From NCBI GenBank assembly GCA_005503215.1, contig SCNS01000013.1, positions 1 through 64,000 on the forward strand: a stretch of DNA of 64,000 nucleotides, written 5' to 3'. Origin of the DNA: Sphingomonadaceae bacterium 3R27C6. GTDB taxonomy: Bacteria; Pseudomonadota; Alphaproteobacteria; Sphingomonadales; Sphingomonadaceae. The translations under genes and the position numbers were made by a program. This document shows, piece by piece, positions 10,100 through 50,212 of this stretch. The notes below the pieces were generated by a model. The model did not search any database. It saw nothing but the letters and a program-made list of their open reading frames with translations, and had not been told where the DNA came from. Positions within the stretch are counted from its first letter, which is position 1. Each line of letters begins with the position of its first letter.

Positions 10100-11239
10100 A
10101 TGACTACGACCGACGAGAATACGGAAAAAGCCTTCCAGGCCGACCCCGCCCAGCTTGAGCCGGCCATCGAACCAACGGCAGCAAGCAACGGCACGCCGCC
10201 GCCCGCCACTGAGGCTGCTGAAAACGAGCTGACCCCGGGCCAGCATGCTTTTGCGCTGCGCCAGGCCGAAACGGTTATCGCAATCGAAAGCACGGCCGAC
10301 GGGAATGGCGATGGGGACTTCACGAGTACATTCGCCAGCGCGCCGCCGGTGCCCGGAGAATTCCGCCTCCCCCTCTCAAAGCTGGCCGAGTGGGTCTACC
10401 ACCCGCGCGCCGGATCGCGCGTGAAGGGAGAACACTTCCAAGCGCTCGCGCTAACCGCCGCCGAACCGGATGACCTTCGCCCACTCGTCGTTCTCGATGA
10501 GATCGATGGTGTCTACCCGATCGTCGATGGCCGCTTTCTCTGGCACGCGCTGAAGGAGACGCATGCCGGTAACGAGGACGTCGGGATTCGCTGCGTGCGC
10601 TTTGTCGGCACCGAAGCGGATGCAGTGGCAGCGGTGTGCGACACCGCGCTTGGAACGATTGAAGCCAGCCCCATGGAGAAGGCGCAGGCGCTGCTCAACC
10701 TCCAGCAGGTGAACGGGATTAGCCAGCGCGCGATCGCCGAACGCTATCCGCGGCTCACCAAGGACAAGGTCAGCAACATGCTGATCGCCGCCCGAATGCG
10801 GCAGGCCTATCCGATGCTGTTCGATATCCTGGAAGAGCCAGACATGGCTCCGATCTCTTATGGGACCACTATCCTGACGCGGCAGAAGGAATTGCCTCCC
10901 GAGGCGTTCCAGGCGATGCTCGAACTCGCCGAGGATGTCGCCGCCAACGGCGAGAGGTTCAAGCCCAACCAGGCGCTCGCTGCGCTTTATCCGGACGGCG
11001 ATGCACAGGCGTCGAGTGACAACAAGACGGTCAAACCGAAGCCGGTCGTTCCGCTGAAGAGCGAAGATATCTTCGGCCACGACGACCAGCCGGTGGCCGC
11101 CTATCAACGCTTCTCCGACGACATCGACCGCATCAGCCTGCCTGACGTCTCGGATATGTCGATCGAGGAACGCCAAGCCGCAGCCGAAGCCTGCATCGCT
11201 GTGATCCGTCACCATTTCGGTCTGGATCAGCAGAACTGA
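10100..11239 (+). CDS. ParB/KorB-like DNA-binding protein
   Basis: This 379-residue protein has a ParB N-terminal domain around residues 90-180 (FRLPLSKLAEWVYHPR, then DLRPLVVLDEIDGVYPIVDGR) and a central helix-turn-helix, SPMEKAQALLNLQQVNGISQ then RAIAERYPRLTKDKVSNML, as in ParB/KorB/Noc proteins. The first 80 residues are acidic, alanine/proline-rich and probably disordered. No ParA ATPase is seen nearby, so it may act as a regulator (KorB-like) as much as a partition protein. The 13-bp motif at 10012 and its inverted pair at 6417 are candidate binding sites. The SRPBCC-adjacent ParB at 58734 is a different family member. Confidence 0.7.
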   Translation: MTTTDENTEKAFQADPAQLEPAIEPTAASNGTPPPATEAAENELTPGQHAFALRQAETVIAIESTADGNGDGDFTSTFASAPPVPGEFRLPLSKLAEWVYHPRAGSRVKGEHFQALALTAAEPDDLRPLVVLDEIDGVYPIVDGRFLWHALKETHAGNEDVGIRCVRFVGTEADAVAAVCDTALGTIEASPMEKAQALLNLQQVNGISQRAIAERYPRLTKDKVSNMLIAARMRQAYPMLFDILEEPDMAPISYGTTILTRQKELPPEAFQAMLELAEDVAANGERFKPNQALAALYPDGDAQASSDNKTVKPKPVVPLKSEDIFGHDDQPVAAYQRFSDDIDRISLPDVSDMSIEERQAAAEACIAVIRHHFGLDQQN

Positions 11240-37125: not shown

Positions 37126-37842
37126 TCAGTTGCCCATGAAGCGGCGGAACCGCTCGCGCCCTTCGGCCTCCTCGGCCGCCTGGCGGGCGGATTGCAGCGC
37201 CTGCGCCCGGCCCTGCGCCGCGACCGCGGCGGTGAGGTCGGCGAGCTGCTGCGATTGCAGCGCGAGGAGCTCGTTGCCCGCCTGCGTCGCCTGGAGCGCG
37301 CCGGTCGCCGACTGGCTGGCCGAGACCAGGCTGTACATCGTCGTGCGGGCGCCTTCGATGTTGCCGACGACGCCGGCCTGCACCTGCAAGGCATCCTGAA
37401 AGGCGCCGACGCTATCCTCCCAGCGGGCATTGGCGTTGGCGACCATCTGCGCGTGGGTGCCGGTGAGCGCCGCGCCCTTGTAGCGGCCGTTGAACACCTG
37501 CTGGACGTTCTGCACGTCATAAGCGATGCGCTGCGCCTCGCCGAGAAGCTGCTGGGTGCGCTGCACCTGCTGCTGCAACTGCTGGAGCGAGCTGAACGGC
37601 AGCGAAGCCAGGTTGCGCGCCTCGTTGACGAGACTGGTCGCCTGCTGCTGGATTTGCTGAATCTGGTTGTTGACCTGCTGGAGCGACCGCGCGGCCGTCA
37701 GCACGTTCTGCGCATAATTGGTCGGGTCATAGACGATCCCGCCGAACTGAGCGTGCGCCGGCGTGGCGGCGGTGATGCCGATCATGCTCGATGTGGCGAT
37801 GGCGCCGGCCAGCATGGCGCGGCGCAGGATATTGGGTTTCAT
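37126..37842 (-). CDS. trbJ: TrbJ, VirB5-like pilus-tip protein
   Basis: The 238-residue secreted protein starts at ATG 37842 with a signal peptide ending ATPAHA, followed by GGIVYDPTNYAQNVLTAARS and a glutamine-rich coiled coil (LQQVNNQIQQIQQQATSLVN), the standard TrbJ sequence. The C-terminus GRERFRRFMGN resembles the end of the TrbK-like protein at 31978. It probably acts at the pilus tip or in channel assembly. The gene starts within the trbE stop region (4-base overlap). Confidence 0.9.
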   Translation of the reverse strand: MKPNILRRAMLAGAIATSSMIGITAATPAHAQFGGIVYDPTNYAQNVLTAARSLQQVNNQIQQIQQQATSLVNEARNLASLPFSSLQQLQQQVQRTQQLLGEAQRIAYDVQNVQQVFNGRYKGAALTGTHAQMVANANARWEDSVGAFQDALQVQAGVVGNIEGARTTMYSLVSASQSATGALQATQAGNELLALQSQQLADLTAAVAAQGRAQALQSARQAAEEAEGRERFRRFMGN

Positions 37843-40328
37843 GGGGTCGTGTCCTTCAAGGCAAGGGGGAGCTGGCCGGCATCTTCCCGGCGACCGGCCA
37901 GCGGATCGAGTTGGGGTTCGGGAAGAAGATCGACCGCCCAGGCCAGGCCGCGATGGCGCAGCCATTCGGCGGCGAAGCGCTCGCGGCCGTGGGTCTCGAC
38001 CAGTTCGGCGATGCGGAGCTGATCGGTCTTGGAAGACGCGGCGGCGAAGGCCAACGCGACCTCGCCTAGCCCCAGCTCGAACAGCCGGTTGCCGCGCCGC
38101 GACTGGCAGTAATAGTCGCGCTTGGGCGTGGCCCGGCTGAGGATTTCGATCTGGCGAGCGTTGAGGCCGAACCGTTCGTAGATGGCGGCGATCTGCGGCT
38201 CGGCGGCGCGCTCGTTCGGCAGGAAGATGCGCGTCGGGCAGCTCTCGATGATGGCCGGCGCGATGTTAGAGGTTTCGATGTCGGCCAGGCTCTGCGTGGC
38301 GAAAACGACGCTGGCGTTCTTCTTCCGCAAGGTCTTAAGCCATTCGCGGAGCTGGGCTGCGAAGTCGGGGGTGTCGAGAACCAGCCAGCCCTCGTCGATG
38401 ATGATGAGCGTCGGCGAGCCGTCCAGCCGGCCTTCGATCCGGTGGAACAGGTAGGACAGGACGGAGGCGGCTGATCCGCCGCCAACCAGGCCCTCCGTCT
38501 CGAACGCCTGCACCGACGCTTCGCCGAGCCGTTCGACCTCGGCATCGAGCAGCCGGCCCCACGGTCCACCAAGGCAATAGGGGGCGAGCGCCTGCTTGAG
38601 CTGCTGGCTCTGGAGCAGAACCGCGAGCCCGGTCAGCGTGCGTTCCGGCACGGGCGCACTGGCAAGGGAGCCGAGCGCCGACCACAGATGCTCCTTGGCC
38701 TGCGGATCGACGGGGACGCCTTCGCTGGCGAGGATCGCCGCCAGCCATTCGGCCGCCCATGCGCGCTCGGCCGGATCGTCGATACGGGCGAGCGGCTGTA
38801 GCTGGACGCTGCCGTCGCCGTCGTCGGACAGCCCGAGATCCTGCCAGTCTCCGCCCGCCGCCAGCGTGGCGGCGCGGATCGAGCCACCGAAGTCGAACGC
38901 GAAGACCTGGGCGTTCTCGTAGCGGCGGAACTGCATCGCCATTAGCGCGAGCAGCACCGACTTGCCCGCGCCGGTCGGGCCGACGATCAGCGTGTGGCCG
39001 ACATCGCTGCCATCGGGGTGAAGGGAAAACCGGAACGGGGTCGAGCCTTCGGTCCTGCCATAGAGCAAGGGGGGTTGTCCGAAGTGCTCGTCCCGTTCCG
39101 GCCCCGCCCATACTGCTGACAGGGGGATCAGATGGGCGAGATTGATGGTGGAGATCGGCGGTTGCCGGACGTTGGCGTAGGTGTGGCCGGGCAGGCTCCC
39201 CAGCCATGCCTCGATCGCGTTCATCCCCTCGGGGATCACGGTGAAGTCGCGGCCCTGGATGACCTTCTCGACCAGCCGCAGCTTCTCGGCCGCAATGGCG
39301 GGATCGCCGTCCCACACCGTCACCGTCGCGGTGACATAGGCCATGCCGGCATAGTCGGAGCCCAGCTCTTGCAAGGCGGTGTCGGCGTCGGCGGCCTTGT
39401 TCGAGGCGTCGCTGTCGAGCAGCGTGGACGCCTCGTTGGTCATGACTTCCTTGAGGATGGCCGCGACCGATTTGCGCTTGGCGAACCATTGCCGCCTGAT
39501 CCTGGTCAGCAGCTTGGTCGCGTCGGTCTTGTCGAGCATCAGCGCGCGGGTGGACCAGCGATACTCGAAGGCGAGCCGGTTCAGCTCGTCGAGCAGGCCG
39601 GGGAAGGTCACGCTCGGGAAGCCGACGATGGTGAGCGTGCGCAGATGGTGCTCGCCGAGCTTCGGTTCGAGCCCGCCGGTCAGCGGCTCGTCGGCGAGTA
39701 GCGCGTCGAGGTGCATCGGAGTTTCCGGCACGCGCACGCGCTGGCGGCGGGTTGAGGTGGTGCTGTGCAGGTAGGTCAGCGTCTCGCCGTCATCGAGCCA
39801 GCGGACCTCGGGCACGAAGCCCTCGACCAGATTGAGAACGCGGTCGCTGCGGTCGGCGAAGCCCTTGAGCAGTTCCCACGGATCGACGCCGCTGGTGGAC
39901 CGGCCCTCGTAGAGCCACCCTTCCGCGCGCGCCGCTTCCTCGGCCGGCGGCATCCACAGCAGGGTGAGATAATAGGCGCTCTCGAAATGCGCGCCTTCCT
40001 CGCGGAACTGTTCGCGGCGCTCCATGTCCACGAGCGCCGAGACCGAATCGGGAAAATCGGAATCGGGGTAGTCGAGCGCGGGACTGCGCTGCGCCTCGAC
40101 AAAGATCGCCCAGCCCGAGCCGAGACGCCGGAGCGCGTTGTTGAGCCGCGCGGTGGTGGCGACCAGCTCGGCGGGTGTGGCGCTGTCGAGATCGGGGCCA
40201 CGGAAACGCGCCGTGCGCTGAAAGCTGCCGTCCTTGTTGAGAACGACGCCCTCGCCGACCAGCGCGGCCCAGGGCAGGAAGTCGGCCAGGTGGGCGGCGC
40301 GATTCCTGTATTCGCGCAGGCCCATCAT
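37839..40328 (-). CDS. trbE: TrbE, VirB4-like transfer ATPase
   Basis: The 829-residue ATPase has the CagE/VirB4 N-terminal domain and a C-terminal RecA-like domain with Walker A GPTGAGKSVLLALM and Walker B TLIIIDEGWLVLD. It powers pilus assembly and substrate transfer at the inner membrane. ATG 40328 is used because it overlaps the trbD stop (ATGA); a start 12 bases earlier is possible. Confidence 0.95.
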   Translation of the reverse strand: MMGLREYRNRAAHLADFLPWAALVGEGVVLNKDGSFQRTARFRGPDLDSATPAELVATTARLNNALRRLGSGWAIFVEAQRSPALDYPDSDFPDSVSALVDMERREQFREEGAHFESAYYLTLLWMPPAEEAARAEGWLYEGRSTSGVDPWELLKGFADRSDRVLNLVEGFVPEVRWLDDGETLTYLHSTTSTRRQRVRVPETPMHLDALLADEPLTGGLEPKLGEHHLRTLTIVGFPSVTFPGLLDELNRLAFEYRWSTRALMLDKTDATKLLTRIRRQWFAKRKSVAAILKEVMTNEASTLLDSDASNKAADADTALQELGSDYAGMAYVTATVTVWDGDPAIAAEKLRLVEKVIQGRDFTVIPEGMNAIEAWLGSLPGHTYANVRQPPISTINLAHLIPLSAVWAGPERDEHFGQPPLLYGRTEGSTPFRFSLHPDGSDVGHTLIVGPTGAGKSVLLALMAMQFRRYENAQVFAFDFGGSIRAATLAAGGDWQDLGLSDDGDGSVQLQPLARIDDPAERAWAAEWLAAILASEGVPVDPQAKEHLWSALGSLASAPVPERTLTGLAVLLQSQQLKQALAPYCLGGPWGRLLDAEVERLGEASVQAFETEGLVGGGSAASVLSYLFHRIEGRLDGSPTLIIIDEGWLVLDTPDFAAQLREWLKTLRKKNASVVFATQSLADIETSNIAPAIIESCPTRIFLPNERAAEPQIAAIYERFGLNARQIEILSRATPKRDYYCQSRRGNRLFELGLGEVALAFAAASSKTDQLRIAELVETHGRERFAAEWLRHRGLAWAVDLLPEPQLDPLAGRREDAGQLPLALKDTTP

Positions 40329-40606
40329 GGCCGCATCCACGCCGGATAGCGGAGGTGCCGCCGGGCCACGTCCACGAACTGCGGATCACGGCGCGCGGCC
40401 CAAACCGACAACGCATGACCGATTGCCCAAATCGCCAGCCCGGCGATCCAGAGGCGAAGGCCGAGGCCGATCGCGCCGGCGAGCGTGCCGTTGACGATGG
40501 CGAGCGAGCGCGGGGCGCCGCCGAGCAGGATCGGCTCGGTCAGCGCCCGATGGACCGGCGCATAGAAGCCGGCGATCGGCTCGACGGGATCGGCCGCGCC
40601 CGTCAT
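40325..40606 (-). CDS. trbD: TrbD, VirB3-like membrane protein
   Basis: The 93-residue protein begins with AGFYAPVHRALTEPILLGGA, the conserved TrbD/VirB3 start, then two membrane helices (SLAIVNGTLAGAIGLGLRLW, IAGLAIWAIGHALSVWA) and a cytoplasmic end (DPQFVDVARRHLRYP). It works with the VirB4-like ATPase, next in the operon. It overlaps trbC and trbE by four bases each. Confidence 0.92.
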   Translation of the reverse strand: MTGAADPVEPIAGFYAPVHRALTEPILLGGAPRSLAIVNGTLAGAIGLGLRLWIAGLAIWAIGHALSVWAARRDPQFVDVARRHLRYPAWMRP

Positions 40607-40938
40607 GCGATCAGCGCCCCGCCGCCGAACGAGAAGAACGACAAAAAGAAGCTCGACGCGGCGAAGGCGATCGACAGGCCGAAGACGATCTGGATCAGCC
40701 GGCGAAAGCCGCCCGAGGTGTCGCCGAAGGCCAAGGTGAGGCCGGTCACGATGATGATGATGACCGCGATGATCTTCGCGACCGGCCCCTCGATGCTTTC
40801 GAGGATGGATTGCAGCGGGGCTTCCCACGGCATCGACGACCCGCCCGCGTGGGCGGGCGCCGAGATGGTGAGCGCGATGACGCTGGCGGTGGCGGCGAGC
40901 ATGGCGCGGCGTGCGCCATGCCGAAGGGCATGGATCAT
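40603..40938 (-). CDS. trbC: TrbC, VirB2-like prepilin
   Basis: The 111-residue prepilin has a long signal peptide ending SAPAHA, then GGSSMPWEAPLQSILESIEG and two hydrophobic helices separated by a short glycine loop (LAFGDTSGG). In RP4 such a subunit is cut and cyclised by the TraF peptidase, and a TraF homologue is encoded at 51537. It builds the conjugative pilus. Confidence 0.92.
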   Translation of the reverse strand: MIHALRHGARRAMLAATASVIALTISAPAHAGGSSMPWEAPLQSILESIEGPVAKIIAVIIIIVTGLTLAFGDTSGGFRRLIQIVFGLSIAFAASSFFLSFFSFGGGALIA

Positions 40939-41921
40939 GGTGCGTCTCCGAGGTTGGGGGGTGCGAGGGGGGTCAGGCGGTAATCGCCGGTCTCGGCGTC
41001 GATCCCCTCGACGCGAGCCAGCTCGGCGAGGCGGCGACCGTGCCCGTCGCGAACCAGCACGGCGATCAGGTCGATGGTCTCGGCGAGCAGCGCGCGGGGA
41101 ACCGTGACGACGGCCTCCTGAATGAGCTGCTCCATGCGGCGCAGCGCCCCGAGCGCGGTCCCGGCGTGGATGGTGCCGATGCCGCCGGGGTGGCCAGTGC
41201 CCCAGGCTTTGAGGAGGTCGAGCGCCTCGGCGCCGCGCACCTCGCCGATGGGGATGCGGTCGGGGCGCAGCCGCAGGCTGGACCGCACGAGATCGGACAG
41301 CGTGACGACGCCATCCTTGGTCCGCATGGCGACGAGGTTCGGCGCGGCGCACTGAAGCTCGCGCGTGTCTTCGATCAGGACGATGCGGTCGGTGGTCTTG
41401 GCGACTTCGGCCAGGAGCGCATTGACCAGCGTGGTCTTGCCGCTGCCGGTCCCGCCTGCCACGAGGATGTTGGCGCGGGCGGCGACGCCATCACGCAGCG
41501 CCGCGGCCTCGGCCGGCGACATGATCCCGGCCGCCGCGTATTCATCGAGCGTGAAGACGGCGACGGCGGGCTTGCGGATCGCGAAGGCGGGCGCGACGAC
41601 GACGGGGGGCAGCAACCCCTCGAACCGCTCCCCTCCTTCGGGCAGCTCGGCCGAGACGCGCGGGGACCGGGCATGAACCTCGACGCCGACATGGTGCGCG
41701 ACCAAGCGAACGATGCGCTCGCCGTCCGCGGCGGCCAGCTTCATGCCGGTGTCGCTGATGCCTTCGCCGAGCCGATCGACCCACAGCCGGCCGTCCGGGT
41801 TCAGCATCACCTCGATGACGGCGGCATCGTCGAGCCAGGCCGCGATCGACGGGCCGAGCGCCGTGCGCAGCATCCGCGCGCCGCGTGTCTTCGCCTCGGA
41901 ACGGATCGGATGGACGGTCAA
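40935..41921 (-). CDS. trbB: TrbB, VirB11-like ATPase
   Basis: The 328-residue hexameric ATPase has the N-terminal domain ([20 protein letters not shown]), Walker [10 protein letters not shown] (residues 156-164), the Asp box [12 protein letters not shown], and the HPGG box [15 protein letters not shown]. It drives pilus and DNA transfer steps. The first in-frame start is a TTG at 41921 directly after a run of eight T that ends a strong terminator hairpin; ATG 41873 is an alternative. A damaged relative of this gene lies at 29500. Confidence 0.92.
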
Positions 41922-41970
41922 AAAAAAGCCCCTGATGAGGGCCGGGCGAGCCGCCGCCCGGCGTCAGGGG
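41920..41970 (-). terminator. Intrinsic terminator in the trbB leader
   Basis: On the minus strand CCCCTGA (41964-41970) pairs with TCAGGGG (41929-41935), enclosing a second GC-rich pair GCCGGGCG/CGCCCGGC, and is followed at once by eight T (41927-41920). This is a strong rho-independent terminator. It sits between the promoter-like element at 42026 and trbB, so it either ends the traG-copG transcript or attenuates the trb operon. Confidence 0.85.
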
Positions 41971-42025
41971 CACATCAAGAGAGGCAGAAAAGACCGTGCT
42001 TCAATAAGTAAATGTGGTCGTCGTA

Positions 42026-42060
42026 GTCTGGCGTAGAGATACAAGAACTGGCGTAGTCAG
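42026..42060 (-). promoter_or_regulatory. Repeated transfer-operon element, copy 1 (before trbB)
   Basis: The plus strand reads AGTCTGGCGTAGAGATACAA then GAACTGGCGTAG, with two GCGTAG units 20 bases apart (42032, 42052). The same arrangement recurs at 44566-44605 before traG, with mostly transition differences. Twin 6-mers at a two-turn spacing suggest a regulator binding one face of the helix, overlapping a promoter for the minus-strand trb genes. Confidence 0.6.
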
Positions 42061-42061
42061 C

Positions 42062-42481
42062 TCATTCTTCTTGGAGCGGAAAGTCCTCGCCAATTTCTTG
42101 CCTGACCTTCGAACCCTTCGCGAGTCGGCGGCCGAGCGCATCCATGAAGGCGTCGTAGCGGTCGCCGCCCTGGCGACGCATCGCGGCCCGCTCGCTCTCG
42201 GGCGGCGGCGGAGTGTTCGACAGCCAGAAGCGCACGAACAGCGCGATCATCTCGACACCGATCCCCGTGTCGCGCTCCAGCCGGGTGATGCGGCGGTCCA
42301 GCTTGTCGAGACGCTTGGCGATGGCGGCCTCGCGCTGCTCGTCGGCGTCGGGCGACAGGAAGGATGCGATGGCCGCCTCGGCGATCAGCGACCGGGACTT
42401 GTCCCTGCGGTCGGCATAGGCGGCGAGCGCGCGCATCAGCTCGGGGTCAAGATAGACCGACAGCGGCGTCTTGGTGCTCAT
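42062..42481 (-). CDS. CopG-family ribbon-helix-helix protein
   Basis: The 139-residue protein starts with a ribbon-helix-helix (PLSVYLDPELMRALAAYADR then RDKSRSLIAEAAIASFL), followed by a coiled coil and a C-terminal part found in the CopG-like proteins that sit between traG and trbB in proteobacterial ICEs. It overlaps traG by four bases. It is a candidate regulator for the repeated element that flanks it, but this is inference. Confidence 0.82.
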   Translation of the reverse strand: MSTKTPLSVYLDPELMRALAAYADRRDKSRSLIAEAAIASFLSPDADEQREAAIAKRLDKLDRRITRLERDTGIGVEMIALFVRFWLSNTPPPPESERAAMRRQGGDRYDAFMDALGRRLAKGSKVRQEIGEDFPLQEE

Positions 42482-44508
42482 AGCTCGATGCCGTCCTCGG
42501 GATCGAGCGACGCCTGCCGGGCCACGCGCTGCATCTGGCGGCGCACCGTCGCCTGCCGCGCCGCATCGCTATCGGGGTCCGGCTCGTCCAGCTCGAACTC
42601 GTTGGCGGGCGCGGGCCGGGGCGTCGGCGCGATGTCGATGTGGGGCTCCAGCGCCGGCTCGCGGCGCAGGTCCCCGTTCGCGGCATCGTCCTCAGCACCC
42701 GCCTTCTTGGCGGCCTTTTTCTTCATCGGCTTCTTGGGCGATTCATGCTCGATCGGCTCGGGCATCGGCGGCGCCTCGATCGGCGCCAGGCCGCTCCAGT
42801 CGTCGGGGCGCGGCGGGCCGCCTCCGACATTCATGTCAGGCGGCGACATCACCCGCTGCGTGAACCGCCGGTCCTTGAAGTAGCGGGCCTTCTTTGCCCG
42901 GATCGGCGGGATGCCCGCGACCATGACGATCTCGTCGTCGGGCGGTAGCTGCATGATCTCGCCGGGGGTGAGGAGTTGGCGGGCGGTCTCAGAGCGCGAC
43001 ACCATCAAATGCCCGAGCCAGGGCGAAAGCCGGTGGCCGGCGTAGTTCTTCATCGCCCGCATCTCGGTCGCGGTGCCGAGCGCGTCCGAGATGCGCTTGG
43101 CGGTGCGCTCGTCGTTGGTGGCGAAGCTCACGCGCACATGGCAATTGTCGAGGATCGCGTTGTTCGGCCCGTAAGCCTTCTCGATCTGGTTGAGGCTCTG
43201 GGCGATGAGGAAGCTCTGGATGCCGTAGCCGGCCATGAACGCCAGCGCGCTCTCGAAGAAGTCGAGTCGGCCGAGCGCCGGAAACTCGTCGAGCATCAAC
43301 AGCAGCCGGTGGCGCGATTGCCGCGCCTTCAGGTCCTCAGTGAGCCGGCGCCCGATCTGGTTGAGGATGAGGCGAATGAGCGGCTTGGTGCGTGAGATGT
43401 CGCTGGGCGGCACGACGAGGTAGAGCGTGACCGGCAGCTCGCCCTCGACCAGATCCTTGATGCGCCATTCGCAGGTGCGCGTGACCTGCGCGACGACGGG
43501 ATCGCGATAGAGGCCGAGGAACGACATGGCGGTCGAGAGCACGCCCGATCGCTCGTTGGCCGATTTGTTGAGCAGCTCGCGCGCGGCCGAGGCGACGACG
43601 GGATGGACGCCGGCCTCCCCCAAATGCGGCGTCGTCATCATCGCCCATAGCGTGCTCTCGATCGGGCGGCGGGGATCGGACAGGAAGGCGGCGACGCCCG
43701 CCAGCGTCTTGTCGGCCTCGGCGTAGAGGACATGGAGGATCGTGCCGACCAGTAGGGCATGGGAGGTCTTCTCCCAGTGGTTGCGCTTCTCCAGCGAACC
43801 TTCCGGGTCCACCAGCACGTCGGCGACGTTCTGCACGTCGCGCACTTCCCAGGCGCCCTTGCGGATTTCGAGCAGGGGGTTGTAGGCGGCCGACGCGCCG
43901 TTGGTCGGATCGAACAGCAGCACCCGCGCGTGCCGGGCGCGAAAGCCGGCGGTGAGCTGCCAATTCTCGCCCTTGATGTCATGCACGATCGCCGAGCCCG
44001 GCCAGGTGAGCAGCGTCGGCACGACCAGGCCGACGCCCTTGCCGCTCCGGGTCGGCGCGAAGCACAGCACATGCTCGGGGCCGTCGTGGCGCAGGTAGTC
44101 GCGCCCGAGCCGACCGAGCATGACGCCGCTGTCGCCCAGCAGCCCAGCGGCGGCGATCTCCCCGCGCGTCGCCCAGCGCGCCGAGCCATAGGTCTCGGCG
44201 TTCTTCAGCTCGCGCGCACGCCAGACCGACATGCCGATGGCGACGACGATCGCGGCGAACCCGCCCGACACAGCGATGAACGCGCCGGTCTGGAATATCT
44301 CCGGCGCGTAGGCGTCAAACGAAAACCACCACCAGAAGAAGGCCGGCGGCGGATAGATCGGCCAGTCGCCGAGCATGAACCAGGGCGCCCCAAGCTGGGG
44401 CTGATAGGCGAGCGCTGCGGCCGTCCATTGCGTCGCGGCCCAAATGGCTGCGAGCACGATCAGGAAGACCGTGAAGACCTGACCCCAAAGGATTTTGGTT
44501 GCCGACAT
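42478..44508 (-). CDS. traG: TraG/VirD4-type coupling protein
   Basis: The 676-residue protein has two N-terminal membrane helices (VFLIVLAAIWAATQWTAAAL and a second around residue 70), Walker A FAPTRSGKGVGLVVP, Walker B LLLMLDEFPALGRL, and the conserved GIQSFLIAQSLNQIEKAYG stretch. It brings the relaxase-DNA complex to the Trb channel. The C-terminal 120 residues are lysine- and glutamate-rich and probably disordered. Confidence 0.95.
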   Translation of the reverse strand: MSATKILWGQVFTVFLIVLAAIWAATQWTAAALAYQPQLGAPWFMLGDWPIYPPPAFFWWWFSFDAYAPEIFQTGAFIAVSGGFAAIVVAIGMSVWRARELKNAETYGSARWATRGEIAAAGLLGDSGVMLGRLGRDYLRHDGPEHVLCFAPTRSGKGVGLVVPTLLTWPGSAIVHDIKGENWQLTAGFRARHARVLLFDPTNGASAAYNPLLEIRKGAWEVRDVQNVADVLVDPEGSLEKRNHWEKTSHALLVGTILHVLYAEADKTLAGVAAFLSDPRRPIESTLWAMMTTPHLGEAGVHPVVASAARELLNKSANERSGVLSTAMSFLGLYRDPVVAQVTRTCEWRIKDLVEGELPVTLYLVVPPSDISRTKPLIRLILNQIGRRLTEDLKARQSRHRLLLMLDEFPALGRLDFFESALAFMAGYGIQSFLIAQSLNQIEKAYGPNNAILDNCHVRVSFATNDERTAKRISDALGTATEMRAMKNYAGHRLSPWLGHLMVSRSETARQLLTPGEIMQLPPDDEIVMVAGIPPIRAKKARYFKDRRFTQRVMSPPDMNVGGGPPRPDDWSGLAPIEAPPMPEPIEHESPKKPMKKKAAKKAGAEDDAANGDLRREPALEPHIDIAPTPRPAPANEFELDEPDPDSDAARQATVRRQMQRVARQASLDPEDGIEL

Positions 44509-44565
44509 GGCACCGAGGTCGATGCGTACCGGACATCAAATCAAGTCACTGTTATTGTTGAGGGA

Positions 44566-44605
44566 AGTCTAGCGTAGAAATACAGGGAGTAGCGTAGTTT
44601 AGTCT
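44566..44605 (-). promoter_or_regulatory. Repeated transfer-operon element, copy 2 (before traG)
   Basis: AGTCTAGCGTAGAAATACAG then GGAGTAGCGTAG, with GCGTAG at 44572 and 44592 (20-base spacing), matches the element at 42026-42060. It lies 60 bases before traG. On the minus strand the shared TGTAT-TCTACGC-AGACT core could contain the promoter. Confidence 0.6.
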
Positions 44606-44700
44606 GCTATGTTTTCGACGGTGATCGATTGAACGGTCCCGTATGTCGCGCGCTATCAGAGCGGACAGATCGAGAACAAGGTGCTTTACCAACCAGAATG

Positions 44701-44735
44701 GGTATGATACCCGATCCAAGTTCGGGCATCATACC
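44701..44735. promoter_or_regulatory. Palindromic operator before the MerR-like/methylase/PIN operon
   Basis: GGTATGATACCCGA (44701-44714) and TCGGGCATCATACC (44722-44735) pair at 13 of 14 positions around a 7-base spacer. It ends 14 bases before the start of the MerR-like gene and so is a good autoregulatory site for that protein. Confidence 0.65.
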
Positions 44736-44749
44736 CGAACCGGAGAAAA

Positions 44750-45274
44750 ATGGTGCGTCTAATCGGATCGCGGGATGTCCTGAAGCTGACCGGGCTTTCG
44801 GCTGATCAGCTGCGCGAATGGACCGTGCGGCGCAGGCTCATTCATCCGGACGTCCCGGCATCACGCCAGGGTCAGCAGGCTCAATTCGGCTGGCAGACAG
44901 TGCTGTTGCTCCGGCTCGCCGTCGTTATGCGCAGCCGGTTCCATGTCGAACTCCAAGTCCATCGCGACCTGCTGCTTCGCGCACGCGAGCTATTGAACGG
45001 CCGGTCCTTTCCGGGCCTGTGGAACCACCGGCTCGTTATCTTTGGACTCGATAGCTGTGCGCTGCTCGGTGGTAGCGATCCGTTGCCGGCCGACCAGGAT
45101 GCAATCCTGCTTCGGCTCAACGCCCATCTTGAGGCGCTGTCGCAGGGCTTCGGCGTCTCCGAGCCGATCGCGCAACTCCCTCTCTTTCCGGCGGTGGGAT
45201 TGCGCCGAAGCGAAGCGCCGGCTGACGCAGAGGGCGGCATCATGCTGCGCACTGCCGAAGGTGACGCGGCGTGA
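44750..45274 (+). CDS. MerR-like helix-turn-helix regulator of the methylase operon
   Basis: The 174-residue protein starts with a MerR-like winged helix: IGSRDVLKLTGLSADQLREW, then RRRLIHPDVPASRQGQQAQF and FGWQTVLLLRLAVVMRSRF. The rest has no metal-sensing cysteines and no long dimerisation helix, so it is not a classical metal sensor. The start follows a GGAGAAAA site and the 14-bp palindrome just upstream. Its stop overlaps the methylase start by four bases. It probably controls the level of the methylase and PIN protein, like the C protein of restriction-modification systems. Confidence 0.65.
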   Translation: MVRLIGSRDVLKLTGLSADQLREWTVRRRLIHPDVPASRQGQQAQFGWQTVLLLRLAVVMRSRFHVELQVHRDLLLRARELLNGRSFPGLWNHRLVIFGLDSCALLGGSDPLPADQDAILLRLNAHLEALSQGFGVSEPIAQLPLFPAVGLRRSEAPADAEGGIMLRTAEGDAA

Positions 45275-47778
45275 CCGCGCTCGCCAGAATCGAAGCGGGA
45301 CTGCGTGCGATCGGCTATCGACCGGAATCGCTCATCCACGACTATAGCTTCGCCGATGTGCTGTCGGAGGCGGGCGAGGAACAGTGCGTCGCACTTGCCG
45401 CGTTCACACAAGTTCCCGAATCCTATCGCTCGGCCGCCTTTGGCGTGATTACCGGCACGCACGATGCGGACGCCGTGCTACGCCGCCGGGCGCTCGGTGC
45501 GCCGATCTTGTTCTCGATCAGCCCTGAAGATGTCGGGGTCTGGCGGGTCGGCGCGGAAGGCAAGCCACGTCTGAGCGAACGGGTTCCGCTCGACCAGCTG
45601 GACGCGCTGTTCGAGCGCAATGCCGACAATTGGAACCCACACGCGGTTCACCGCGCCAAGTCGCTGGCCCAGACCCAGACGGCCTATCAGCTCGACTTCG
45701 TCGATCTGGGACTGATGCCGGCGATCGAACATGAGATCGAAGTGAAGCTCGATCGGCTGCTCGGCGAAGTCATTGCCCAACTGCTGTCCGGGATCGACGA
45801 TCCGCAACGCGAAGAAGCGGTTTTCCGCACCACCTTCAGGCTCCTTGCCGCCAAAATCCTGATCGATCGCCAGCATCCTGACGCGACATCATGGACCCAT
45901 GCGCCGGTGCGCGATGTGCTCGCCGGCATCGAGACCTATTATCATCTCGATCATATGCTGCGGCCCGCGGTCGATGCCCTTCCGTCGTCGGCCGTGGAGA
46001 CTGCATGGACGACGCTTCGCGGCGCCATCACCTTCCGGAACATTTCGTCGGACAGTTTGGCATTCGTTTACGAAAACACGCTGGTGACGGCTGACACGCG
46101 CAAACGCTTCGGCACGCACTCTACCCCCAGACAAGTGGCTGAATATGTCGTTGGCCAACTCGATCTCGGCCGCTTCGATCTTGAGGACATAACGATCTAC
46201 GAGCCGTTCGCTGGCGCGGGTATGTTCCTCGTCGCGGCACTGCGGCACCTGCGCGATCAGCTTCCCGATACGCTCACCGGCGAGGAGCGGCACGCTTTTC
46301 TCGTCAAGCGGATCAGCGGTGCGGAACTCGACAGCTTCGCCTGTGAAGTCGCGACGCTATCGCTGATCCTTGCTGATTACCCCAACGCAAATGGCTGGAA
46401 AATCGCATCCAAGGACTTGTTCGAGAAAGACGCGCTTCGAGCAGATGCCGCTGGCAAGCGCATCGTCCTGTGCAACCCACCCTGGGAGGACTTCGACAGC
46501 GAAGAGCGCCAGCGCTATCCCGAGATGGCGGCAAAGTCGTTCTCGAAGCCGATGGCGGTGCTGCGGACGCTCATCGAAGCCAAGCCCCAAGCGCTGGGTT
46601 TCGTTTTGCCGCAAGGCTTTCTCCGCCAGAAGCAATATGGCGAACTGCGCCAGCTGCTCGCTGACACATATGACCGGATCGAGCTGACATCGCTTCCTGA
46701 CCGCATCTTTCAGCGTGCCGGGCTGGAGGCGGCCGTGATCATCGCCACCGGCCAGCGCGACGCTGATGCGAAGAATCTTCCGAGCCAGTTGCGCTCCGTC
46801 GAAGTCACCGACCGAGGCCGTCCGGATTTTCTCATGACGGGTAAGGTCACCACCGAGCGCCGCCGCACCAAGCTGGTATGTTCGGGGGACCTTTGGATTG
46901 GTGCGCTCGACGAGGTCTGGGAATATCTGGCGGACTATCCCGTGCTTGGTGGTCAAGCCGAAGTTCATCGCGGCCTTCAGTGGATCAGCCAGTCTGCCGG
47001 CTGGAGCGCAGTTCCTCGGGAGGGCTTTGCCAGAGGAATTTTCAAGCCCGCGGACTCGCTTCTTCAATTTAGTATCACCACGACCGGCTTCGTCGATATG
47101 CGCGAGGAATCCGCATATCGGTTCGGTCCACTCACGCGCGCCTGGGACAAACCCAAAATACTGGTCAACGTGGCGCGCCGGTCGCGTGGCCCCTGGCGGC
47201 TGGATGGCGCGCTAGACGCGAGCGGGCTCGTGCCGTCGCAGGCGTTCTTTGGCATCTGGCCGACCACATCAGACCTGCCAGTGGAAGCGATCGAAGCGCT
47301 GATCAACAGCCCGCTGGCGAGCGCCTTCGTCCTCGAGCGGGCCTCGAACCAGCATCTCACCAATGTTGTTATGAAGCAGCTGCCGTTGCCAAAGCGGGGC
47401 GCGCTTGGTGACGTGGTCGCCGCAGTGTGGCGCTACCGCGACGCGCTTGGCGCCGCCGCAGCCCATGCGCTACGCACGCCCGAGATCGACGAGCGGTTGG
47501 AAGGGTTGCTGATCGATATCGACGCGCAGCTCTTGAAGGCCTTCGATCTGCCTCCTCGTCTGGAGCGACGATTGCTCGAAGCGTTTCGTGGACATGAAGC
47601 TGAACGGCGTGTCGCACATACCTTCAAGGGCTGGTTCCCAGAGGACTTTACCGCCTACCTCCCGCTGCACGAATATGTCGGCCCGCTGCTACGCGAAAAC
47701 ACTGGCGCCTGGGCGCTCGAAGTCTTCACGCCGGCACCGGAGCACGAGGTTGAGCGGCTCAGGCGCTACGTCCAGTAG
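45271..47778 (+). CDS. Large N6-adenine DNA methylase (Eco57I/type IIG-like)
   Basis: The 835-residue protein has the N6-methylase core: YENTL then GTHSTPRQVAEYVV (residues about 267-294), SAM-binding EPFAGAGMF (311-319), AELDSFACEVATLSL, and catalytic NPPW (402-405) followed by GFVLPQGFLRQKQYGELRQL. The last 250 residues look like a target-recognition domain. The first 260 do not show a clear PD-(D/E)XK site, so nuclease activity cannot be assigned to this chain. The neighbouring PIN gene may supply a nuclease. It lacks the other genes of BREX or DISARM. Target sequence is unknown. Confidence 0.8.
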   Translation: MTALARIEAGLRAIGYRPESLIHDYSFADVLSEAGEEQCVALAAFTQVPESYRSAAFGVITGTHDADAVLRRRALGAPILFSISPEDVGVWRVGAEGKPRLSERVPLDQLDALFERNADNWNPHAVHRAKSLAQTQTAYQLDFVDLGLMPAIEHEIEVKLDRLLGEVIAQLLSGIDDPQREEAVFRTTFRLLAAKILIDRQHPDATSWTHAPVRDVLAGIETYYHLDHMLRPAVDALPSSAVETAWTTLRGAITFRNISSDSLAFVYENTLVTADTRKRFGTHSTPRQVAEYVVGQLDLGRFDLEDITIYEPFAGAGMFLVAALRHLRDQLPDTLTGEERHAFLVKRISGAELDSFACEVATLSLILADYPNANGWKIASKDLFEKDALRADAAGKRIVLCNPPWEDFDSEERQRYPEMAAKSFSKPMAVLRTLIEAKPQALGFVLPQGFLRQKQYGELRQLLADTYDRIELTSLPDRIFQRAGLEAAVIIATGQRDADAKNLPSQLRSVEVTDRGRPDFLMTGKVTTERRRTKLVCSGDLWIGALDEVWEYLADYPVLGGQAEVHRGLQWISQSAGWSAVPREGFARGIFKPADSLLQFSITTTGFVDMREESAYRFGPLTRAWDKPKILVNVARRSRGPWRLDGALDASGLVPSQAFFGIWPTTSDLPVEAIEALINSPLASAFVLERASNQHLTNVVMKQLPLPKRGALGDVVAAVWRYRDALGAAAAHALRTPEIDERLEGLLIDIDAQLLKAFDLPPRLERRLLEAFRGHEAERRVAHTFKGWFPEDFTAYLPLHEYVGPLLRENTGAWALEVFTPAPEHEVERLRRYVQ

Positions 47779-47781
47779 CGG

Positions 47782-48279
47782 ATGGACACCTATCTGCTCG
47801 ATACGAACCTTGTGTCCGTGCTCTATGACGCGCGGAGGCCCAATCATATCGCCGTCCGCCAGGCAGTCGCCGACTTACCGGCGCAAGCCGCGCAGCTCGT
47901 ATCGGTAGTAACGGTCGGCGAGCTCAGGTTCGGGTTAGCGCTCGCGCGCGCCGCAAGCCAGCCGCTCACGCACATTGAAGCGTGCCTCGTCAGCACCGAG
48001 GCACACCCGTTGGCCGAAGTCACACGGCACACGGCAGATGCCTTCGCGACCGTTAAATCGAGCGTCGCGCTGGCGCGGATCGACATCAGGCGCCGTATTC
48101 CACGCTGGGTCGAGGCCTGGACCGATCGTGTGAGCGGCCAGCTTCTGCAGATCGATGAGAATGATCTCTGGATTGCGGCACAAGCGCTTGAACGAAACTA
48201 TGTCGTCGTCACCTCCGACCGGGATTTCACTCAAGTGATTGCGCCGGTGGTTCCGGACCTTCGCGTTCTTCTCGTCTGA
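47782..48279 (+). CDS. PIN-domain nuclease (VapC-like)
   Basis: The 165-residue protein carries the four acidic PIN residues: D7 in YLLDTNL, E47 in TVGELRFG, D128 in DENDLWIAAQAL, and D146/D148 in TSDRDF. These coordinate the metal in VapC-type ribonucleases. No VapB-like antitoxin gene is beside it. Instead it follows the methylase stop by 3 bases, so it belongs to the MerR-like/methylase operon. It could be the toxic arm of that module or a restriction effector. It converges on the relaxase gene. Confidence 0.82.
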   Translation: MDTYLLDTNLVSVLYDARRPNHIAVRQAVADLPAQAAQLVSVVTVGELRFGLALARAASQPLTHIEACLVSTEAHPLAEVTRHTADAFATVKSSVALARIDIRRRIPRWVEAWTDRVSGQLLQIDENDLWIAAQALERNYVVVTSDRDFTQVIAPVVPDLRVLLV

Positions 48280-48327
48280 GCGACTCCTTCTTTTGCTTCA
48301 GCTCGCTCTCGGCCCCAAACCCTTCCG

Positions 48328-50058
48328 CTAAAGGCCCAGCCCTCGGCCGCGCCCGAACGACCAATCTACCCCGCCGCCCGTACGCATGACGCCGGAGATG
48401 TGCTTGCCGATCTGGCGGTCGAGCGAGGGCGACCAGGGCACGAGCTGGAAGCTCAGGCCATTGTCGATCATGGCGAAGCGCCCCGAGGCGAGCGTGATCC
48501 GCTGGCGCACCGTGCCCGCGACATACTCCCCGGCCTTGGACGGCGCGTGCGGCTGGCCGATCTCGGCCGACAAGTCCTTGGCGGCCGCGTCCAGCTCGCG
48601 GCGGCGGAGCGTGTCGAGCAGGTTGCGCGCGAAGATGATCCGCTGTCCCTGCCGCCGCGCGAGCCCCTCGTCGGCGAGATGCTCGGCGCGGGCCTCCATC
48701 GCGGCGCGCACTTCGGTCCCGAACCCGCCGCCGAGATCATGGCCGTCGCCTGACAGGTTGCGCCGGTCGAGCCAGGTCGCACCCGGCGCGCGGACCTGCG
48801 CCTCAAGGTCCATGTCGGAGCGCACGGCCAGCGCCACCCGCTGCCGGCCTTTCCGGTCCTCGAAGCGGCGCAGCTCGACGATCGCGCCGGGCCGGCAATC
48901 GCCGGTCGCCTCGATGTCGGGAAGCTGGACATGGTGGGTGCGGCCGTCGATCCCGTCCACGATCGCATAGGCTTTGCCGGTCAGCTCGTCATGCAGGCCG
49001 CGATCGACCAGCCGGCCGATAACGGGCTGAGCGGGATCGGCGTCGAGGACATAGCTGCCGGCGCCCCGGTCGATGCCGCGGTCGCTCATCGCCTTGTGCA
49101 TTCGCTTGATGATGTCGTCGCGCTCGCCGAGTTCGCGCAGCGCCGCCTGGGCATCGCCGGCCAACGTCCACTGGCCGGGCGCGATCTCGCTGGCGAGGCC
49201 GAGCCGCTCCAGCTTGCGCAGCCGTCCCATCCTCAGCACATGGTCGCCGTCCGGCCGGACGCTGGGCTCGGGCGCCATGTCGATCAGGCCGTTGCGCTGC
49301 ATGGTCCGCGACAGGTCGCGGTCGATCTCGGTCCAGCGCTCGGCTTCGATCTGCCGCTCCAGCGATTGCCGGATTTCAAGGTCGGTGCGCGGGCCGAGTT
49401 CTTGGGTGACGATCTCGCGCGCCTGCGCCCGCATCCCTTCGCGGATATAGTCGCGCGAGATGATGAGGTTCTGCCCGTCCTCGCCGACGCCCCGCACTAT
49501 GATGTGGATGTGGGGATTGTCGGTGTTCCAGTGCTCGACGGCCCGCCAGTCCAGGCGGGTGCCGAGATCCTTTTCCATGCGGGTCATCAGCTCGCGGGTG
49601 AAACCCTTGAGGTCGCGCATCTGCTCGGCATCCTCGGGCGAGACGATGAACCGGAAATGATGCCGGTCGTCCTCGCAGCGGGCGGCGAACTCGTTGCGGT
49701 CGAGGCCGTCTGCGTCGGCGCCGAACAGCACGCCCCGCTCGCCGTCGCGGGTGACGCCATCGCGTTGCAGGTAGTTGAGATGAGCCGCGAGCGAGGCGCG
49801 GCCGCCATGCCGGACCACGCGCGCCTTGACGATGACCTGGCGCGATCGGTGGCCGAGCCGATGGGTCGCGCGGACGCTCGCCACGCGGCCCCGACCGAAG
49901 GTCGAGCGGCCCGGCGCGACGATCTGGCCGCGGCGCGAGACATGGCCGCCGGCCCGCTGCGCGGCGGCGAGCGCTTGGACGATGATCGGCAGCGCCCGCT
50001 GGCTACCGCGCGAGCGGATACGGCCTGGCCGGAGGCGGAAATCGTCGTCGCGGCTCAT
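48328..50058 (-). CDS. VirD2/TraI-type relaxase with DUF3363
   Basis: The 576-residue protein starts at ATG 50058 (RDDDFRLRPGRIRSRG). The relaxase part has HLNYLQRDGV with a candidate catalytic tyrosine, FRFIVSPEDAEQMRDLKGFT, and the HUH motif DNPHIHIIVRG. The C-terminal half is DUF3363 (AYAIVDGIDGRTHHVQLPD and GTEVRAAMEARAEHLADEGL). It nicks the ICE oriT, binds the 5' end and is led through the channel. It differs from the MobA/MobL enzyme of the left element, so the window has two unrelated relaxase types. Confidence 0.9.
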   Translation of the reverse strand: MSRDDDFRLRPGRIRSRGSQRALPIIVQALAAAQRAGGHVSRRGQIVAPGRSTFGRGRVASVRATHRLGHRSRQVIVKARVVRHGGRASLAAHLNYLQRDGVTRDGERGVLFGADADGLDRNEFAARCEDDRHHFRFIVSPEDAEQMRDLKGFTRELMTRMEKDLGTRLDWRAVEHWNTDNPHIHIIVRGVGEDGQNLIISRDYIREGMRAQAREIVTQELGPRTDLEIRQSLERQIEAERWTEIDRDLSRTMQRNGLIDMAPEPSVRPDGDHVLRMGRLRKLERLGLASEIAPGQWTLAGDAQAALRELGERDDIIKRMHKAMSDRGIDRGAGSYVLDADPAQPVIGRLVDRGLHDELTGKAYAIVDGIDGRTHHVQLPDIEATGDCRPGAIVELRRFEDRKGRQRVALAVRSDMDLEAQVRAPGATWLDRRNLSGDGHDLGGGFGTEVRAAMEARAEHLADEGLARRQGQRIIFARNLLDTLRRRELDAAAKDLSAEIGQPHAPSKAGEYVAGTVRQRITLASGRFAMIDNGLSFQLVPWSPSLDRQIGKHISGVMRTGGGVDWSFGRGRGLGL

Positions 50059-50069
50059 GCCGGGACAGG

Positions 50070-50212
50070 CCGCAATGTGCGGCAAACCCTGCGCGCTGCT
50101 GGTTTCCAGCCAGCGCCGCACAGTGCGGGATTTCCGCACACATTGCGCAGCAATGCCCGAAAGCCTTGAGAATCAAGGCCACAACCGAGGCGCAGGGGCT
50201 CCGCACATTGCC
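50070..50212. other. Candidate oriT: clustered CCGCAC inverted repeats
   Basis: The non-coding stretch between relaxase and transglycosylase holds four related sites: CCGCAATGTGCGG (50070-50082), CCGCACAGTGCGG (50116-50128, palindrome around one base), CCGCACACATTGCG (50134-50147) and CCGCACATTGCC (50201-50212). Repeats directly upstream of a relaxase gene are the usual setting for oriT. No nic consensus could be fixed by eye. Confidence 0.5.

Follow-up and report, generated by a model that had tools for sequence, protein, structure and literature searches.

The 64,000-nucleotide stretch of the genome of Sphingomonadaceae bacterium 3R27C6 analysed here (contig SCNS01000013.1, positions 1 to 64,000; below, the window) carries, inside an integrative and conjugative element (ICE), a compact module of three genes that encode a small helix-turn-helix (HTH) regulator, an N6-adenine DNA methyltransferase (MTase) and a PIN-domain protein. 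With a probability of about 0.6, this module is a toxin guarded by an MTase acting as its antitoxin, the toxin being latent until the MTase is lost, titrated or blocked. The gene order, the sequence motifs, the operator motifs, a joint change of the toxin and the MTase C-terminus among relatives, and the antitoxin-like domain fused to the MTase in those relatives that encode a RES-domain toxin are directly seen. The chances are about even that the module represents a distinct class of toxin-antitoxin (TA) systems, in which the antitoxin is a DNA methyltransferase and its C-terminus is an exchangeable antitoxin port, taking the form of a PIN-binding tail or an Xre/MbcA-type domain.

Organisation and Conservation of the Module

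The HTH, MTase and PIN genes are arranged head to tail on the plus strand; the MTase gene has a GTG start codon and overlaps the HTH gene by 4 bp, and the PIN gene starts 3 bp past the MTase stop codon. An earlier model-generated annotation made from the letters alone (the sequence-only reading) had described this overlap and this 3-bp junction, and both were borne out together with their coordinates. The genes are as follows:

44750..45274, plus strand: gene 1, small HTH regulator of 174 amino acid residues (aa), MerR_1-like only below the cut-off; probable autorepressor
45271..47778, plus strand: gene 2, N6-adenine DNA methyltransferase of 835 aa with a type IIG-like fold; S-adenosylmethionine (SAM) and NPPW motifs intact
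47782..48279, plus strand: gene 3, VapC-like PIN RNase of 165 aa; residues D7, E47, D128 and D146 invariant in 43/43 proteins

A profile of six methylases, run against 84,980 species with one genome for each, yielded 45 loci; together with three plasmids and two further genomes, and after removal of L051, which had a methylase match of 67 residues only, they make up 49 locus records (L002–L050). Records L006 and L034 are the same contig, so that 48 of the 49 are distinct, both being counted, and L007 is nearly the window's own element. The relatives belong mostly to Alphaproteobacteria of many families, with two Acidobacteriota and the gammaproteobacterium Thiohalocapsa (two phyla), and their MTases are 39–86% identical to that of the window. 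In 47 of the 49 records the gene next to that of the MTase on its upstream side encodes an HTH homologue, the misses being L039, where the contig begins within the methylase gene, and L045, where the methylase is truncated; 45/47 offer an MTase start codon with a 4-bp overlap of the HTH stop. The third gene encodes an intact PIN protein in 42 records, a broken one in three (a deletion junction in L007, a frameshift in L044 and a truncation in L045) and a RES-domain protein in three, and it lies off the contig in one (L043). HTH, methylase and intact toxin thus occur together in 44/49 records, and the synteny of MTase and toxin genes in unrelated genomes, proposed as a check by the sequence-only reading, is found across the relatives. 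Of the other gene families, none was shared by more than three of the 49 neighbourhoods at the blastp threshold applied; some of these neighbourhoods are cut short by the end of the contig.

A further triad (L056) came from a later search; two scans of viral contigs found no relative, and a search of the order of G318, covering only four genomes, gave no lead. The loci were found via the MTase, and toxin genes without an MTase would escape such a search, which PIN searches (210 genomes, and plasmids) correct in part: the PIN profile, at E ≤ 1e-10, had two matches in the 210 genomes, both in known loci and both beside the MTase. Three nearly identical modules (L029, L030 and L042; methylase tree distances under 0.1) reside in Oceaniglobus, Brucella pseudogrignonensis and Sphingobium, hosts of three different families, and recent horizontal transfer is therefore probable for them.

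Joint Change of the Toxin and the Methyltransferase C-Terminus

MbcTA and ParST are TA systems of the RES-Xre kind, and it is a RES toxin that takes the place of PIN in L004, L048 and L049. PF08808 matched the RES gene with E-values of 1.5e-16 and 1.4e-18 in L004 and L048, and L049 was assigned via similarity. The MTases of these loci are 943–947 aa long, and in all three the C-terminus shows PF23125 followed by PF09722 (E 1.1e-4 to 0.017, below the cut-offs), which are the middle and toxin-binding domains of Xre/MbcA/ParS antitoxins. Direct similarity is the stronger evidence: a tblastn search revealed 38% identity over 141 residues (E 4e-17) between residues 802–942 of the L048 MTase and a free-standing gene annotated as an Xre/MbcA/ParS antitoxin, as well as many additional, weaker matches to antitoxin genes; the two free-standing antitoxin genes that were inspected each lie directly upstream of a RES NAD+ phosphorylase gene. 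The position of the antitoxin directly upstream of the toxin, typical of RES-Xre pairs, is occupied here by the C-terminal domain of the MTase.

The profile of the PIN-type MTases aligns to the three RES-type MTases up to position 778–779 and no further; past this point the PIN type continues for about 55 residues and the RES type for about 165–170. In the tree of MTase cores, the RES-type sequences form a clade with 100/100 support, and the grouping of this clade with the PIN-type L040, likewise at 100/100, was kept at 100/99 after eight further rows had been removed; the L040 core is 54% identical to the RES-type cores vs. 51% at most to any PIN-type core. The first tree omits L006, L007, L012, L039, L043 and L045, and it flags L040, L046 and L050 as long branches and has weak deepest forks (71/27); the second additionally omits L046, L050 and the six-row L002 clade, and it carries a warning of long branches meeting. 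The toxin and the MTase C-terminus have changed together, and the regulator and the MTase core have stayed; this joint change does not depend on where the tree is rooted. The simplest reading is that the toxin and the C-terminus changed together in one event because they bind each other.

The equivalent part of the window's MTase is short:

47608..47775, plus strand: C-terminal tail of the MTase, residues ~780–835, at the position of the Xre/MbcA-type antitoxin domain of the RES type; proposed PIN-binding segment

An alignment of the PIN-type tails indicated conserved W, L.E, G.W and F.P.P..E motifs. The confidence of the AlphaFold2 model in this region, taken by blocks of ten residues, varies from 55 to 90 on the predicted local distance difference test (pLDDT) scale; residues 811–820 (pLDDT 55) have the lowest confidence of all blocks in the C-terminal half, as expected for an arm that would fold on its partner. 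Judged by its place and by analogy with the RES type, this ~55-residue end of the window's MTase may be the PIN antitoxin segment.

The PIN Protein

The product of gene 3 belongs to PF01850 (2.9e-12), and weak NCBIfam matches below the cut-off point to VapC. Residues D7, E47, D128 and D146, the catalytic acids of PIN proteins, are invariant in all 43 sequences compared (the frameshifted L044 was left out), so that the four acids of VapBC toxins are present; the proteins of the loci listed have 165–170 aa. No small antitoxin gene lies directly upstream: in the window this place is taken by the end of the MTase gene, and in the relatives listed the PIN gene starts within a few bases of the MTase stop codon. 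The remark of the sequence-only reading that the PIN protein has no VapB partner is thus correct as to gene content; the partner itself is probably not missing, since the antitoxin fused to the RES-type MTases points to the MTase C-terminus in this role.

A plasmid of Nostoc cf. commune, pANSO36D (L059, positions 1–1941), encodes a type ISP restriction-modification (R-M) enzyme, followed by a DUF2281 gene and a VapC gene whose product is 30% identical to the window's PIN protein. Here the R-M enzyme, the probable antitoxin and the toxin lie in one apparent operon, possibly as an intermediate to the fused state.

The Methyltransferase

The MTase matches Pfam N6_Mtase (8.4e-14), and the SAM motif (E311, P312, G315, G317) and the NPP[FW] motif are intact in 44 of the 44 MTases examined, as had been claimed for the window. 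The AlphaFold2 model has a mean pLDDT of 84.2; Foldseek matched it best to a type IIG enzyme and to adenine methylases (BpuSI, M.BseCI, CamA), and a comparison with DrdV covered residues 1–758 (Z-score 23.4, root-mean-square deviation (rmsd) 8.9, 620 residues aligned). The protein has the SAM and NPP[FWY] motifs of the N6-adenine MTase part of type IIG enzymes; their other hallmark, an N-terminal PD-(D/E)XK nuclease with an E-x-K motif, was not found, no such motif being conserved within residues 1–150. The N-terminal domain is as follows:

45271..45630, plus strand: N-terminal alpha/beta domain of the MTase, residues 1–120, delimited by DSSP of the model; no conserved E-x-K

The sole invariant lysine in an alignment of 15 N-terminal domains is K130, preceded by R-A. 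Residues 44 and 46, which the strand order of the model would make the equivalents of the nuclease positions, are A or V and T, respectively, in 44/44 MTases. A search of 15 N-terminal domains against Pfam at E ≤ 1 gave two single-member matches only, which look like chance, and the N-terminal profile had no match among PDB sequences; a scan of 398 genomes of the phylum with this profile found three with a match, the window's own included. A type IIG-like fold of the N-terminal domain is only suggested by the DrdV alignment, which extends over residues 1–758 and is not a search with that domain alone. The sequence-only reading had noticed no nuclease site in the methylase and had named a normal PD-(D/E)XK type IIG N-terminus as a finding that would overturn it; none is discernible by sequence.

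PADLOC assigned 30 models to the MTase, and the 25 of them that are listed are all methylase models (type I, type II, IIG, mad2, PglX); it gave no match for the HTH or PIN proteins. The score against the MADS model mad2 (NCBIfam NF047738) was 22 bits vs. a cut-off of 720, and that against PglX of BREX-2 (NF033451) was 12.7 bits vs. a cut-off of 400. The known defence systems were rejected as the identity of the module, the NCBIfam scores being far under the cut-offs.

The Regulator and Its Operators

The sequence-only reading had called gene 1 MerR-like and had given it a private operator, a 14-bp palindrome. The HTH assignment holds; the MerR label is weak, since MerR_1 (PF13411) scored 15.6 bits (E 0.018), below the gathering score of 21.6. 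The operator was found as well, not as a single 14-bp palindrome but as two palindromes of 13 bp, 24 bp apart:

44700..44712, no strand: operator palindrome 1, GGGTATGATACCC, 13 bp; motif present upstream of the HTH gene in 17/18 loci of the window's HTH type
44724..44736, no strand: operator palindrome 2, GGGCATCATACCC, 13 bp; 24 bp from palindrome 1, just 5' of the start codon of gene 1

With at most one mismatch, the motif occurs twice in the window, both times at this locus, where 0.37 matches are expected. Taken from the window alone, the case is moderate, because 4/100 shuffled sequences also reached two matches. The comparison makes it strong: with at most two mismatches, one to three copies lie upstream of the HTH gene in 17 of the 18 loci of the window's HTH type (the only miss is L021) vs. 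none of the 29 loci of the other HTH type. The latter have their own palindrome, of the form ATCTTGTTGT..ACAACAAGAT, and the 9-mer ATCTTGTTG is found in the upstream regions of 19 of the 29. An operator of its own thus tends to accompany each HTH type, a pattern that autorepression would produce, and gene 1 probably represses the operon. A scan for sigma-70 promoters found none.

The C-terminal motif Q..L.FPP of the RES-type HTH proteins is the same as in the PIN-type proteins of their HTH group, and the window's HTH type has the version Q.PLF. Gene 1 does not look toxin-specific, because RES-type and related PIN-type loci have similar versions of this C-terminus; a role of the HTH protein as the toxin-specific antitoxin was considered and is not favoured.

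Proposed Mechanism and Alternative Explanations

The module may work as follows. Gene 1 would repress the operon from its operators, and the C-terminus of the MTase would bind and silence the toxin encoded by gene 3, a PIN RNase in the window and a RES protein in relatives, so that with the MTase present and undisturbed the toxin would stay latent. Loss of the MTase with the element, its titration by unmethylated phage DNA or its blocking by a phage anti-restriction protein would then free the toxin, and growth would stop; the function under selection may be phage defence or maintenance of the ICE. In this way toxin release would follow directly when the element is lost, when unmethylated foreign DNA enters or when a phage anti-restriction protein acts. 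The restraint of the toxin appears to be gene-encoded: in one branch, the methylase bears a recognisable antitoxin-like domain for the adjacent toxin.

The sequence-only reading had left a choice between a restriction-like and a TA logic, in which methylation protects and PIN cleaves DNA or RNA. A conserved, self-contained module of the toxin, defence or addiction type is what the comparison supports; the part in which methylation protects and PIN cleaves DNA is not supported, as a RES gene, annotated as an NAD+ phosphorylase, replaces PIN in three relatives. A restriction-like module whose MTase marks self DNA and whose PIN protein cuts unmarked DNA would suit the type IIG-like MTase with its intact motifs and the position of the toxin gene 3' of the MTase gene in 48/49 records (broken in three). 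It is nevertheless very unlikely: cutting of DNA by PIN is disfavoured because a RES protein, of a family annotated as NAD+ phosphorylase in the free-standing pairs and not expected to read DNA methylation, occupies the same place; moreover, the weak sub-cut-off NCBIfam matches liken PIN to VapC, no translocase or other partner recurs, and the N-terminal domain has no conserved E-x-K. An epigenetic addiction switch, where the MTase would methylate the operator or promoter and so silence the toxin gene, and loss of methylation would de-repress it with no protein-protein neutralisation, could account for the conserved operator motifs upstream of the operon and for the invariant MTase motifs. The toxin gene, however, comes at the end of what appears to be one operon with the MTase gene, so that both would rise together, and neither the joint change of C-terminus and toxin nor the fused Xre/MbcA-type domain is explained; we consider such a switch improbable.

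The antitoxins of TA systems are as a rule small proteins that bind DNA and repress the operon encoding them, and the HTH protein, encoded in 47/49 records, might in the same manner be both antitoxin and repressor, the MTase being a passenger or a separate orphan methylase trapped between the two. The MTase C-terminus, however, is specific to the toxin type and antitoxin-like in the RES type, and the HTH C-terminus is shared by RES-type and related PIN-type loci, which leaves this arrangement with a small chance only. The notion of chance cargo, an orphan MTase beside a decaying toxin gene with no common function, draws on the broken PIN genes of three records out of 49 (L007, L044 and L045); it is hardly credible given the same order and spacing across many families and two phyla, the invariance of the PIN catalytic acids in 43/43 and the 39–86% identity to the window's MTase, which makes recent copies unlikely for most loci.

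Several observations weigh against the MTase as the guard of the toxin. The three RES-type loci form one clade on a long branch, and the joint change is therefore a single event; the trees are unrooted (midpoint rooting was used for drawing) and give this change no direction. The antitoxin domains of the RES type score below the Pfam cut-offs, and a profile of the three C-termini had no match among PDB sequences. None of six PIN-type tails matched a known antitoxin family in Pfam; a search of 385 genomes for a free-standing homologue of the tail gave only three matches, the methylases themselves, and the L030 tail had no free-standing homologue among plasmids. In a single-chain model of the tail with PIN, the PIN part was badly folded (rmsd of about 12 in matches to VapC, first PIN strand missing), and the model lends no support. 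Finally, the HTH protein could still contribute to neutralisation.

The ICE Setting and Neighbouring Genes

The module lies between a coupling protein gene of a type IV secretion system (T4SS) and a relaxase gene, as the sequence-only reading had proposed:

42478..44508, minus strand: left neighbour, T4SS coupling protein (TraG/VirD4); PF02534 8.3e-99
48328..50139, minus strand: right neighbour, relaxase / DUF3363; PF11843 1.1e-91, PF03432 6.3e-7
44628..48328, no strand: complete cargo block between the relaxase and traG genes of the ICE; edges 60–116 bp apart in four related ICEs

The insert of 3.7 kb contains the three genes and the operators. Its edges (44627/44628 and 48328/48329) are spaced by 116 bp in L064 and L065, 60 bp in L066 and 115 bp in L069, four related ICEs from the same bacterial family; since the edges nearly adjoin there, the block 44628–48328 is cargo. 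Four of seven other copies of the ICE (L093–L096) hold about 3.5 to 9 kb of different DNA in the relaxase-traG gap, which is therefore a cargo site of this ICE family; in the other three (L097–L099) the relaxase-traG arrangement is unreadable. The gap of L093, judged by eye, contains a MerR-like regulator and other genes, and those of L094 and L095 encode proteins of 896 and 1715 aa, respectively. With four traG homologues (E below 1e-100; contigs C4, C20, C51 and C53), the window's genome probably carries several related conjugative elements. The Sphingopyxis metagenome contig L007 is 100% identical to window positions 37271–47885 and then, at its position 10614, joins 63493; the junction is a 15.6-kb deletion or an assembly join, in which the PIN gene has lost its end, the relaxase is gone, and the HTH and methylase genes are intact.

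Among 79 of the 159 neighbour genes of the relatives, a phage integrase was found five times and an MmeI-type methylase four times (raw counts, with no enrichment claimed); PADLOC models of R-M, RT-Toprim and candidate PDC systems are also present among the neighbours. On the Agrobacterium plasmid pAtA74a_a (L003, 2538–14481), the module is flanked by a DEAD/DEAH helicase gene and a Shedu SduA-domain gene and lies near Mu-type transposase, TniB and TniQ genes; the region is possibly a defence island. In L032, L033 and L041, genes of one family, each about 1176 aa long, follow the module directly on its 3' side.

Comparison with Known Systems

The MTase shares its fold with the type IIG R-M enzymes BpuSI, DrdV and MmeI; unlike them, it has no conserved E-x-K, has an extra C-terminal tail and shares an operon with a toxin gene. 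The PIN protein has the four catalytic acids of VapBC toxins, but the module lacks a vapB gene and the PIN protein has 165–170 aa. The RES-type relatives contain both halves of the RES-Xre TA systems (COG5654/COG5642), the antitoxin-like domain and then the RES gene, with the difference that a DNA methyltransferase of 943–947 aa carries the antitoxin-like part as its C-terminal domain. RES and an Xre-type HTH are listed as a TA pair in PMC2701414; the accessible parts of this paper and of PMC7641849 contain no methylase-antitoxin fusion. The open-licence literature, outside which fall most subscription papers and all bioRxiv preprints, yielded no HTH-methylase-toxin triad, methylase-antitoxin fusion or toxin swap; what is already known is the occurrence of VapC genes beside R-M genes without an antitoxin (2022), and the fusion and the co-swap were not found in that literature.

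The case known since 2022 is that of Thiohalocapsa sp. PB-PSB1, in which VapC and HicA genes lie beside R-M systems without an antitoxin and a PrrC-like logic was proposed (ISME J 2022, PMC9296519). As in the present module, a VapC-family toxin accompanies MTase genes and VapB is absent, but five of the six cases are complete R-M systems, and the accessible description mentions no HTH-MTase-toxin triad, toxin swap or antitoxin domain of an MTase (PMC9296519). Another Thiohalocapsa, strain ML1, is present in the locus set as L037. An MTase with an antitoxin port is a possible explanation for VapC genes that stand beside methylase genes without VapB.

The nearest functional likeness is to PrrC-EcoprrI, where an anticodon nuclease is silenced by a type Ic R-M enzyme (PMC3506569, PMC12707154): an RNase toxin without an antitoxin gene is encoded together with a DNA-modification enzyme, which holds PrrC latent there and is proposed to hold the toxin latent here. 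The two are not homologous. No PrrC homologue in a type I hsdMSR operon is present in the window, gene 3 encoding a PIN protein; the toxin of the module is PIN or RES instead of PrrC, the MTase is a single chain, a dedicated HTH regulator is encoded, and there is no hsdR, hsdS or other recurrent partner. According to a proposal of 2012, typical antitoxins are absent from immunity systems because the toxins linked to them are restrained by components of these systems themselves, PrrC being the well-studied model (PMC3506569). The module described here is a small three-gene system in which this hypothesis of restraint by an immunity component becomes testable and, if the proposed mechanism is true, it would realise the coupling of immunity and suicide in minimal form, within one protein.

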